Below are positions 16,853 through 27,964 of a stretch of DNA of 35,649 nucleotides, piece after piece. The stretch is taken from positions 1 through 35,649 of the forward strand of contig JAGQMY010000021.1 in assembly GCA_020428465.1 (NCBI GenBank), in the 5' to 3' direction. The DNA is from Candidatus Saccharimonadota bacterium. GTDB taxonomy: Bacteria; Patescibacteriota; Saccharimonadia; Saccharimonadales; SZUA-47. The notes beneath the pieces are model-generated. The model had not been told where the DNA came from. It saw nothing but the letters and a program-made list of their open reading frames with translations, and did not search any database. Both the position numbers and the translations under genes were made by a program. Position 1 is the first letter of the stretch, and each line of letters opens with the position of its first letter.

Positions 16853-16882
16853 CATTTTTACTAAATAACCCTTAATTCTTCT

Positions 16883-16902
16883 AAAATCTAACTTCTATAA
16901 TC
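16883..16902 (+). repeat. Copy of the four-helix-bundle flanking repeat
   Basis: This 20-mer matches the reverse complement of 27066-27085, beside the four-helix-bundle gene, at 19 of 20 positions. It overlaps the -10 region of the ychF relic. It may be the scar of a lost cassette. Confidence 0.6.
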
Positions 16903-16933
16903 TATAATCTATATACATGGGACTTTCAATTGG
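16901..16933 (+). repeat. Relic of the ychF promoter and first codons (direct repeat, left copy)
   Basis: These 33 nt match 21697-21729 at 32 positions. They include TATAAT, the same 8-nt gap, the ATG and the codons for Met-Gly-Leu-Ser-Ile-Gly. After that the frame runs Thr-Arg-Ile-Ala-stop, so it is dead. The true ychF lies 4.8 kb to the right, so this is either the original gene start left behind by an insertion or a duplicated target segment. Confidence 0.8.
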
Positions 16934-20910: not shown

Positions 20911-20964
20911 TATCAGTTAAGGGTCGGACCCTTAACCCCTTAGAAAATTACATATTTTCGAAAT
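20911..20964 (-). repeat. REP-like palindromic repeat, copy 1
   Basis: The core at 20916-20936 is a perfect hairpin: arms GTTAAGGGTC and GACCCTTAAC around one central base. The flank CC-C-TTAGAAAATTAC and a T-rich tail continue the identity with copy 2 at 21631-21683. Both copies have the same orientation and bracket the RAYT transposase gene, the classic layout of REP sequences and their transposase. Confidence 0.85.
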
Positions 20965-20971
20965 TCCCCCG

Positions 20972-21586
20972 TTAATTATCTGCTAATACGTATTTCAGCT
21001 CACTCAACATTTTCTTATTTTCTTCGTAATCCGCGACGAATATTCCGTACTGTCTTCTGTTGCTATGTAGCTCTAGCACCTTTTCAGACTGCAACCACTC
21101 TGGCTCTGTTCCCTTGCGAATATATTTAAAGCTTGAAAACTTATAGTTTCTCCAGCTCCTGGGATTAAGGTGTATATACCTAGAAACATGCAATAGGTAT
21201 GAATCCTTATTAACGAGCGATGCTTTAAACCGAGATCCAAAAACAGGTCCGGTTCTACCATATTTGTTATTAAAATACGCCGTATACGATACCATAATGC
21301 TTTTCATAAGCTCCGACAAAATACCCTGATCCCGCTGATAAAAAAGCAAATGAAAATGATTATCCATCAGACAGTACGTCAAAAGTTCAATTTTGTTCCG
21401 AAAGTGCGGATACGGATAACCATTCCTAGTAACAACCTCTCTTTTAGAGAGATGTCGTGAAAGCAAATATAGAAAATAGTCCTTGTCTGATTCGTCTATA
21501 AATATTATGTCTTTATTAGCACCACGCGCATAAACATGATAATAGCTTTCAGGTAAATCATGACGAATCACATTTCTTGAAGGCAT
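20972..21586 (-). CDS. REP-associated tyrosine transposase (RAYT, Y1_Tnp family)
   Basis: Single-strand HUH-type transposase related to IS200/IS605 TnpA. The metal-binding motif is HFH in YCLMDNHFHLLFY and the likely catalytic Tyr lies in the helix VSYTAYFNNKYGR. The family features SYYHVYARG near the N-terminus and VFGSRFKASLV followed by YIHLNPR are present. At 204 aa it matches RAYT proteins. The frame opens at ATG 21595, but a TATAGT box at 21597-21602 sits right before that codon; ATG 21586, 10 nt downstream of the box, gives the expected MPSRNVIRHDLPES start. Palindromic repeats lie 8 bp beyond its stop and 45 bp before its start. RAYTs are often single-copy domesticated enzymes that move REP repeats; here both copies still flank the gene. 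Confidence 0.9.
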   Translation of the reverse strand: MPSRNVIRHDLPESYYHVYARGANKDIIFIDESDKDYFLYLLSRHLSKREVVTRNGYPYPHFRNKIELLTYCLMDNHFHLLFYQRDQGILSELMKSIMVSYTAYFNNKYGRTGPVFGSRFKASLVNKDSYLLHVSRYIHLNPRSWRNYKFSSFKYIRKGTEPEWLQSEKVLELHSNRRQYGIFVADYEENKKMLSELKYVLADN

Positions 21587-21596
21587 AACAACCATA

Positions 21597-21630: not shown

Positions 21631-21683
21631 TATCTGTTAAGGGTCGGACCCTTAACTCCTCAGAAAATTACTAGTTTTGAAAT
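21631..21683 (-). repeat. REP-like palindromic repeat, copy 2
   Basis: The core 21636-21656 is identical to the core of copy 1 (10-bp arms, one-base centre) and the flanks are about 80 percent identical. On the minus strand the hairpin foot is preceded by GAGGAG, which resembles the GGAG/GTAG tetranucleotide recognised by RAYTs in other bacteria. Its outer end supplies the -35 box of ychF. Confidence 0.85.
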
Positions 21684-21704
21684 AACGGGTTAGAATTCTA
21701 TAAT
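21677..21704 (+). promoter_or_regulatory. ychF promoter, partly inside the REP-like repeat
   Basis: A TTGAAA -35 at 21677-21682 and a TATAAT -10 at 21699-21704 are 16 nt apart. The -10 ends 8 nt before ATG 21713, so the ychF mRNA is probably leaderless. The -35 lies in the tail of REP copy 2, while the -10 is part of the 33-nt repeat shared with the relic at 16.9 kb. Confidence 0.65.
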
Positions 21705-21729
21705 CTATATTCATGGGACTTTCAATTGG
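21697..21729 (+). repeat. ychF promoter/start direct repeat, right copy
   Basis: Right-hand partner of the 33-nt repeat at 16901-16933 (32 of 33 identical). It spans the -10 box and the first codons of the intact ychF, and marks the right edge of the accessory island. Confidence 0.8.
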
Positions 21730-26838: not shown

Positions 26839-27042
26839 CTAGTTATTGCTTACGAATGGTAATAATGCCAAGTGACGAGCTCTCTTAATTGCTTTCGCGA
26901 GTTGTCGCTGTTTACTTTCAGTTAAACCGGTCTTTTTTCTTTGTTCAATTTGACCGTATTGATTCACATATCGTTGCAAGGTCTTAAAATCCTTGTAATC
27001 AAAATATGGAATATCTGTCTTGTGTTTAAATATTTTAGCCAT
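26839..27042 (-). CDS. rpsR: Small ribosomal subunit protein S18
   Basis: A 67-residue S18 with the typical core DYKDFKTLQRYVNQYGQI then RKKTGLTESKQRQLAKAIKR and RHLALLPFV. It binds with S6 on the 30S platform. It belongs to the conserved rpsF-ssb-rpsR operon but is separated from ssb by a four-helix-bundle gene. A strong GAAAGGAG ribosome binding site precedes it, right after the cassette's repeat. Confidence 0.96.
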   Translation of the reverse strand: MAKIFKHKTDIPYFDYKDFKTLQRYVNQYGQIEQRKKTGLTESKQRQLAKAIKRARHLALLPFVSNN

Positions 27043-27065
27043 TTTACTCTCCTTTCAATCGAGTA

Positions 27066-27085
27066 GATTATAGAAGTTAGATTAT
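27066..27085 (+). repeat. Inverted repeat on the downstream side of the four-helix-bundle gene
   Basis: This 20-mer is the inverted partner of 27486-27505 (18 of 20 positions). A further related motif (TTCTATAATC) runs to 27100. It separates the four-helix-bundle gene from rpsR and is also found at 16883-16902. Confidence 0.75.
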
Positions 27086-27100
27086 TGATTATAGAATTCT

Positions 27101-27487
27101 TTAACTTCTATTCTTATTTACTTTTTGAAGTGTTATGAGCATTTTGTGTACTGTAGCACACTGCTCTAAATACTTTTCTGCTACTTTGTCGGTGGCATAA
27201 TTGATACCGCGAGCAATTAAAATCTGGTTTTCAAGTTCCGTTAGAGAACCGTTAGCCATTGAGTAGAACTGATCTTTCTCTTTCGCACTACGTCTACCGA
27301 ACCCTTCTGCAATGTTAGACGAGACCGAGACAGCTGCTCGGCACATTTGGCTGGAAAGACCGTATCTCTCGTGCGCCGGAAAAGAATCGCATAGCTTATA
27401 GATTCCTATAGACAATTTATATGACTCTTGCCATACGCGCAGATCTTTAAAAGAACGCGCCGGTTTGTCATTGCTATTTCCTTCCAT
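27101..27487 (-). CDS. Four-helix-bundle protein (23S rRNA intervening-sequence family)
   Basis: A 128-residue helical protein of the S23/IVS four-helix-bundle family. Recognisable parts are FKDLRVWQESYKLSIGIY, FPAHERYGLSSQMCRAAVSV, SNIAEGFGRRSAKEK and the third helix SLTELENQILIARG. In some bacteria the family is encoded inside 23S rRNA intervening sequences; in CPR genomes it is often free-standing, and its function is not known. Here it is flanked by inverted 20-bp repeats, one overlapping its start codon, and lies between ssb and rpsR, an operon that normally has nothing there. That looks like insertion of a small mobile cassette (inference). Confidence 0.93.
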   Translation of the reverse strand: MEGNSNDKPARSFKDLRVWQESYKLSIGIYKLCDSFPAHERYGLSSQMCRAAVSVSSNIAEGFGRRSAKEKDQFYSMANGSLTELENQILIARGINYATDKVAEKYLEQCATVHKMLITLQKVNKNRS

Positions 27488-27505
27488 AATCTAAAATCTA
27501 TAATC
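27486..27505 (-). repeat. Inverted repeat on the upstream side of the four-helix-bundle gene
   Basis: Partner of 27066-27085 in opposite orientation, 18 of 20 identical. It fills almost the whole 24-nt gap after the ssb stop and overlaps the A and T of the ATG at 27485-27487. Confidence 0.75.
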
Positions 27506-27511
27506 CAAATT

Positions 27512-27964
27512 CTAGAATGGGATATCGTCTAAATTAATCGGCTCATCGCCAATATCATCTACTTCTTCATCCGGCTTTTTACTAGATTTTGGTGCAGGTT
27601 CTGAGTTAGATGATTCGCTAGCGTTATTTCCGCCAGGTCCACCTAAGAATGTCACGTCTTGCGCAACCACTTCAACTTTACTGCGCTTCTGTCCTTCTTG
27701 CTCCCAGCTCCTACTTTGCAAACGTCCGCTAACTAAACAAGGTCGTCCCTTGCTCAAATATTGGCTAACTCGTTCGCCAAGTGGCCCCCAGGCTACAATA
27801 TCAACGTAGTCAGTTGCTTCCTGCCAGTTTCCGTCAGATCCTTTATAGCTACGATTGAGCGCTAAACTAAACGAGCAAACGCTCTGTCCATTTGGCGTTG
27901 TCCTAAGCTCTGGATCCCTTGTTAAATTACCCATTAATGTGACTTGGTTAAAACTCCGAGCCAT
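27512..27964 (-). CDS. ssb: Single-stranded DNA-binding protein
   Basis: A 150-residue SSB with the OB fold (FNQVTLMGNLTRDPELRTTP, then DYVDIVAWGPLGERVSQYL and GRPCLVSGRLQSRSW), a Gly/Asn/Ser-rich linker and the acidic tip Asp-Asp-Ile-Pro-Phe that docks repair and replication proteins. It has a strong AAGGAGG ribosome binding site. A TATAGT box at 28012-28017 with TTGCAC at 28036-28041 could give it a second promoter besides that of rpsF. It is followed after 24 nt by the inserted four-helix-bundle gene. Confidence 0.96.
   Translation of the reverse strand: MARSFNQVTLMGNLTRDPELRTTPNGQSVCSFSLALNRSYKGSDGNWQEATDYVDIVAWGPLGERVSQYLSKGRPCLVSGRLQSRSWEQEGQKRSKVEVVAQDVTFLGGPGGNNASESSNSEPAPKSSKKPDEEVDDIGDEPINLDDIPF

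Follow-up and report, generated by a model that had tools for sequence, protein, structure and literature searches.

Intervening sequence protein genes between inverted heptad arrays: a probable mobile element of Saccharimonadia and other bacteria

The feature analysed here, an IVP gene located between ssb and rpsR, is probably one copy of a mobile element of about 450 bp in which the gene lies between two inverted arms made of heptads; we give this reading a probability of roughly 0.7. IVP stands for the "23S rRNA intervening sequence protein" (PF05635/TIGR02436, also called S23p), and the window is the whole stretch of 35,649 nucleotides that was analysed. Our comparisons show the anatomy of these elements, their generality, their empty sites, a clean insertion and the movement of gene-less copies with the same kind of arms. 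The IVP element is real, general, very widespread and apparently undescribed. Its plan of a gene between inverted ends is already known from the rRNA-borne intervening sequences (IVS); new are the heptad arrays, the copies lacking a gene and the occurrence beyond rRNA.

To our knowledge, the free-standing four-helix-bundle genes of CPR, Bacteroidota and cyanobacteria have no known function, and the model gives the orphan family PF05635 a role. It also connects the intervening sequences of 23S rRNA with a far wider set of elements inserting into essential operons. The over-representation of heptanucleotides in many bacterial genomes has been left unexplained (PMC4692102, PMC4679880), and IVP elements may be the source of part of this excess. 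Heptanucleotide repeats and free-standing four-helix-bundle genes appear to belong together, as the ends and the gene of a mobile element.

The element in the ssb-rpsR gap

The features of the window used below are the following.

16880..16914, plus strand: solo heptad array in the dialect of the IVP element's arms (score 20/20, perfect core)
20972..21595, minus strand: RAYT-like Y1 transposase (PF01797, 32.5 bits; NF047646, 35 bits, below the cut-off of 80)
21696..21712, plus strand: two-heptad remnant (TCTATAATCTATATTC) immediately upstream of the ychF start codon, from sequence and alignment
26839..27042, minus strand: rpsR, downstream host gene (Pfam Ribosomal_S18)
27061..27095, minus strand: 3' arm, downstream of the IVP gene, with five heptads in the 5' arm's dialect, inverted (score 19/20)
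27101..27487, minus strand: IVP gene, four-helix-bundle protein of 128 aa (profile matches PF05635 and TIGR02436)
27483..27517, plus strand: 5' arm, upstream of the IVP gene (heptad score 18/20; TRF period 7/14)
27512..27964, minus strand: ssb, upstream host gene (Pfam SSB), its stop codon TAG inside the outermost heptad

The IVP gene belongs to its family with 125.5 bits against PF05635 (cut-off 33.8) and 117 bits against TIGR02436 (cut-off 24). The nearest solved chain, 2gsc (XCC0516; E 2e-21), is the only matched solved IVP structure and comes from X. campestris; the quoted literature describes it as a pentameric four-helix bundle.

The earlier note had reported 20-bp inverted repeats, identical at 18 of 20 positions, one of them overlapping the start codon of the gene. 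Both statements were confirmed: the repeats lie at 27066-27085 and 27486-27505, and the right arm includes the IVP ATG (minus strand, 27487-27485). This is the sole pair of such quality in the window at a spacing of 100-600 bp, and none was found in 12 order-3 Markov sequences. A repeat search on the arms returned an inverted match of 23 nt at 87%. Each arm proved to be an array of about five degenerate heptads, (TAATCTA)n, the two arrays being mutually inverted, and the window's arrays score 18-20 of 20 where null maxima reach 13-16. The 5' arm reads TCCATAA TCTAAAA TCTATAA TCCAAAT TCTAGAA; the start codon of the IVP gene lies within it, as does the TAG stop of ssb, to which the right-hand array extends. 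Terminal inverted repeats enclose an S23p ORF. Neither a PADLOC search for a defence role nor a comparison with phage records gave any match, and no Rfam match of any kind was found within the window.

The distance between ssb and rpsR is 472 bp in the window versus 17 bp in a congener (G001), which we take as the empty site. Nine family members have ssb and rpsR together on the locus, and none of them carries an IVP gene in this gap. The gaps range from 17 to 597 bp (58-597 for all but the congener) and contain unrelated sequence. The proposal that the gene splits a contiguous operon is therefore borne out by the nearest relative but not by the other family members: with gaps of 58-597 bp, contiguity is not strict and the site varies. 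A gene conserved at this position, with no repeat elsewhere, had been named as contrary to mobility; what we found instead is gaps free of IVP genes in the relatives, and repeats elsewhere. The SSB of the congener is only 65% identical, and at such a distance the exact junction of the window's copy is unreadable; a recent movement of this particular copy would be conjecture, which weighs against the model. Within the gap, two relatives (L052, L053) show unrelated ORF-like sequence, and several (L045-L053) share a recurring structured-looking sequence (..GGGCGAAAGC.. / ..GACACCCTTTCAGGGT..). An Rfam search of these variable gaps for a conserved RNA gave no match.

The lone repeat noted at 16883-16902 is also real (19/20 by reading). 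It is part of the solo array; after the five heptads TCTAAAA TCTAACT TCTATAA TCTATAA TCTATAT of this array comes a copy of the ychF start, and positions 16900-16932 match 21696-21728, where the two-heptad remnant is located, at 32 of 33 bases. The ychF-start copy (ATGGGACTTTCAATTGG) looks as if an element at ychF had taken its flank along. Beside the solo array there is also a short match to the end of a serine recombinase-looking gene in the congener (L371).

Elsewhere in the same genome, further arrays of the TAATCTA dialect were found, and one contig (C51, locus L003) carries two TAATCTA-like arms separated by about 480 bp that contain no IVP gene. Four more IVP loci of this genome each have, by eye, their own inverted heptad family: ACGTATT (L005), TTAATTA type (L008), ACTCTGA (L009, a broken copy) and TTTATTA (L007). 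The IVP gene of L007 and its flanks are nearly identical to those of L107, from a genome of a different family (f1 and f28). A LexA-like gene adjoins the IVP gene in both, and the likeness of the sequences points to recent horizontal transfer of a larger segment.

Heptad arms across the class and other phyla

PF05635 was detected in 71 of the 393 genomes of the class Saccharimonadia, and IVP matches cover more than 20 named phyla. We analysed 95 IVP genes from the window's class and 79 from other phyla. In the class sample, repeats at lags 7 and 14 are raised in the two flanks alone, with a mean best run of 7.7-8.7, compared with about 3.1-4.0 at other lags, in the middle of the gene and 500-600 bp away. 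In the cross-phylum sample, the lag-7 values are 11.8 and 12.0 versus about 3.4-5.0. Using the 99th percentile of the controls as thresholds, heptads were counted in at least one flank of 74/95 and 70/79 genes and in both flanks of 50/95 and 56/79, for the class and cross-phylum samples respectively, and inverted pairing of the arms in 55/95 and 63/79. In roughly 16% of the class genes and 4% of the cross-phylum genes, neither heptads nor paired arms exceed the controls, which counts against the model. The idea that four-helix-bundle genes of CPR bacteria travel as small cassettes was upheld for their bounding inverted repeats and for empty sites in relatives, but the habit is not confined to CPR.

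The arms of one element score 15.3 (class) and 19.7 (cross-phylum) when paired with each other, and mismatched pairs 8.6 and 9.6. Own arms therefore match far better than those of other elements and the dialect is element-specific. A phase fit over 183 arrays yielded a [T]AG core and, after it, four bases that vary almost freely, with a score of 363 versus 227-240 for shuffled heptads. Arrays comprise about 4.4 copies per arm, and a few elements (L150, L224, L228) have octads in place of heptads. In plasmid pANA02 of Anabaena sp. 90 (L148, 1120-1420), an IVP element located between cas6 and cas4 has an upstream arm of about 40 heptads and a short downstream arm, i.e. one-sided arm growth.

Arrays were also searched away from IVP genes, in 20 kb per genome: 13 heptad arrays were found in 21 samples from IVP-bearing genomes and none in 21 samples without IVP (p = 0.002). 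In G151, which has five IVP genes in the contig of the sampled stretch, 400 kb contain 25 lag-7 arrays versus 0-4 arrays at lags that are not multiples of 7. No lag-7 array was detected in G050, a genome without IVP. Some heptad arrays form inverted pairs without a gene, and others are compound, combining several dialects. One compound array of 311 bp (L278, 18790-19101, on G151:C2) runs through successive heptad dialects, as if elements had repeatedly inserted into one another's ends.

Empty sites, gene-less copies and insertion

Nine Nostoc plasmids share a common operon of three ORFs. In four of them the operon is empty at both junctions, in three an IVP element of AGTCAGA type lies between ORF1 and ORF2, and in one a different element, of GGGGAAA type, lies between ORF2 and ORF3. 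Between plasmids, the element at ORF1-ORF2 has 98.3-99.0% identity, and the flanking ORFs mostly 90-93% (up to 95%). Occupied and empty sites were also paired at 91-99% identity for cas6-cas4 (Anabaena versus Dolichospermum) and cas10-cmr3 (Picosynechococcus).

In plasmid pNPM1, the IVP gene of the ORF1-ORF2 element is interrupted by a gene-less element of 182 bp with the same kind of arms, which is exactly absent in the two sister copies. This gene-less element was located 98 times, in 43 plasmid records of Nostocales. The ends are sharp in six aligned copies, all of which adjoin ATAA. In a Calothrix RarA gene, it is inserted with no duplication or loss relative to the intact RarA of Aulosira, and the ATAA was present in the target beforehand. 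Being short, gene-free, multi-copy, bounded by terminal inverted repeats and matched by intact empty sites, it has the properties of a MITE. Several other occupied/empty pairs (Calothrix, Picosynechococcus, cas6-cas4) have junctions that are not base-exact, which counts against the model. The Nostocales alignments show that heptad-armed elements move, also without a gene of their own. Since gene-less copies move, mobility in trans occurs, as the earlier note had supposed.

Two candidate target duplications were rejected: at Nostoc site 1 (TTCTA), TTCTA and GATTATGC join without one, and at the sugar-transferase site (AATAG match) the reading was abandoned, the gene-less insertions having none. 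One IVP insertion (L267 versus L263) is compatible with no target duplication. ATAA was not seen at the Saccharimonadia insertions inspected.

IVP insertions are situated close downstream of the stop codon of the upstream gene, and 94 of 110 IVP genes have the same orientation as both neighbours. In Saccharimonadia the sites occupied repeatedly are rpsR|efp, sugar transferase|glycosyltransferase, dnaN|recF, lemA|htpX, pheS|pheT and ssb (all names but ssb and rpsR were read by eye). The sugar-transferase site is empty in many relatives, where the stop and start codons are adjacent or overlapping. The IVP tree clusters by site, with 13 changes versus 27.7 when shuffled, and its supported branches require that one site was occupied several times independently. 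This combination of clustering and re-use looks like that of elements which stay long at a site and now and then insert anew, or like homing. Such strong clustering counts against the model in that much of the spread could be vertical or due to recombination of the flanks.

Movers, alternative readings and related systems

The earlier note had named the RAYT of the window as an example of a possible mover, and this was not supported. Two REP-like palindromes GTTAAGGGTCGGACCCTTAAC bracket the RAYT, at 20916-20936 and 21636-21656; the right one is about 40 bp from the two-heptad remnant. The RAYT, having its own separate REPs, was rejected as owner of the heptad repeats, and the arms of the window's element do not match the REP beside the genome's RAYT, as those of a REPIN would. 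Moreover, no clear heptad enrichment was found at 20 RAYT loci from IVP-bearing genomes, and a Y1 match is absent in 36 of the 71 IVP-bearing genomes, among them G022, which is a single contig listed as 100% complete. The RAYT and its two GTTAAGGGTCGGACCCTTAAC palindromes form in themselves a classic RAYT/REP arrangement in a Saccharimonadia genome.

The broader alternative is that IVP cassettes and gene-less elements are non-autonomous cargo of a Y1/HUH transposase (IS200/IS605 or RAYT-like), which would act on single-stranded DNA with IVP as a passenger or accessory. We regard it as rather unlikely, though it fares best among the alternatives. It agrees with the gene-less element, which inserts without target duplication beside a fixed ATAA flank; on the other strand this is insertion 3' of TTAT, with TTCAA at the far end, and the element ends are by reading capable of forming hairpins. 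Such a layout of fixed flank and no duplication is known for IS200/IS605. Y1 and IVP also co-occur across genomes (35/71 IVP genomes versus 46/322 without IVP; OR 5.8, p = 1e-9). Against it stand the IVP genomes lacking a Y1 match, the RAYT loci without clear heptad flanks, the separate REPs of the window's RAYT and the lack of ATAA at the inspected Saccharimonadia insertions; in addition, the gene inside the arms is IVP, and no Y1 gene is encoded in the window's element. Given the co-occurrence and the clean insertion of the gene-less element beside ATAA, a Y1-type enzyme may still be the mover.

Under the preferred reading, that of an IVP-carrying mobile element, each arm consists of about 4-5 degenerate heptads, with the [T]AG core and four bases forming the dialect, which is common to both arms and differs between elements. 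A multimeric IVP, a homologue of the pentameric four-helix bundle, would bind the arms and pair both ends; since IVP is the sole gene inside the element and its family forms multimeric bundles, heptad binding is the natural reading, though we infer it. No catalytic motif was recognised in IVP, which counts against this reading. The strand-cutting enzyme could be a Y1/HUH transposase acting in trans, or host replication or repair enzymes. Insertion would occur without target duplication, beside short preferred sequences, and would be tolerated mainly just behind stop codons in operons, in sense with the neighbours, an orientation that would let host transcription express the IVP gene. Slippage, together with template switching inside the palindromic pair, may keep the arms matched.

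Tentatively, and with more doubt than confidence, we propose that IVP elements form a categorically new class of bacterial mobile elements present in more than 20 phyla. In this class the sole gene would code for a four-helix-bundle multimer that is not itself an enzyme. This protein would recognise TAG-core heptad arrays and rely on host enzymes to move gene-less copies as well as its own cassette. The heptanucleotide repeats of bacteria (cyanobacterial, Xanthomonas, 23S IVS) would then be largely the ends and debris of this class.

A different possibility, which we consider improbable, is an element acting at the RNA level like the 23S IVS: the arms would pair in the transcript, RNase III would cut them out, and mobility, if any, would be RNA-mediated or very old. 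The protein family and size are as in IVS elements, and in Coxiella the IVS has GACAGAT heptamers as well as terminal inverted repeats and is cleaved by RNase III (PMC4990558). In the window's element, RNA prediction pairs the two arms (z = -3.0), the sense-orientation bias in operons is strong, and there are base-exact cases without target duplication. However, the arm mismatches in sense RNA comprise 269 G-U versus 329 A-C. This lack of a G-U excess argues against selection on RNA pairing, and on this ground selection for an RNA stem was rejected as the cause of the matched arms. An RNA-level element also sits poorly with the common gene-less copies and solo arrays and with copies antisense to both neighbours (L144 among them).

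Finally, ordinary simple-sequence repeats, with heptads made by polymerase slippage around a vertically inherited and often lost IVP gene, are a very improbable and already strongly disfavoured explanation: heptamer over-representation in bacteria is known and slippage has been proposed for it, as the citations in PMC4692102 and PMC4679880 convey, and IVP lineages do cluster by site, but slippage fails to predict a period of 7 solely beside IVP, matched inverted arms, the TAG core, the absence from IVP-free genomes, precise insertions and multi-copy gene-less elements.

The mobile-element reading can be set against several known systems. REPINs and their RAYTs likewise involve small inverted-repeat elements moved in trans within genomes, but REPs are short palindromes beside a RAYT, whereas the IVP arms are heptad arrays around IVP. 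IS200/IS605 elements and MITEs resemble the gene-less Nostocales element in the lack of target duplication, the fixed tetranucleotide flank and the hairpin-capable ends; unlike IS200/IS605, the IVP element has heptad arrays and IVP as its sole gene, with no Y1 or TnpB gene. The Avd protein of diversity-generating retroelements has a related four-helix-bundle fold, but the window's IVP reaches only 20.3 bits with NF033474, below its cut-off of 80.

Heptamers of the types GGGAATC and GGGGA(T/C)T have been described in Xanthomonas and Nostoc as mostly intergenic and of unexplained function (Rehm et al. 2015, PMC4692102), with 70 close inverted heptamer pairs in Xcc. That paper gives no general link of heptamers to mobile elements and does not mention S23. 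By the published description these are, as here, heptamer arrays with many inverted pairs; in our data the arrays are tied to IVP elements. The origin of the TAACTGA repeats of Beggiatoaceae was left open (PMC4679880). Among open-licence PMC papers, an earlier link between S23/IVP and heptads was found only in the Coxiella IVS paper, for one species, and no searchable paper connects IVP genes to inverted heptad arrays located outside rRNA.

The closest known relatives are the 23S IVS with an S23p ORF of Coxiella and Leptospira, which share with the window's element the PF05635 family, a size of about 430 bp and terminal inverted repeats. The window's element differs in lying between the protein genes ssb and rpsR and not in 23S rRNA. 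IVP elements in general differ by having heptads at both ends in element-specific dialects, gene-less and solo derivatives, and insertions at the DNA level with empty sites. In the Coxiella IVS, tandem GACAGAT heptamers precede the S23p ORF (PMC4990558); this heptamer contains CAG and so resembles the [C/T]AG-plus-four rule.
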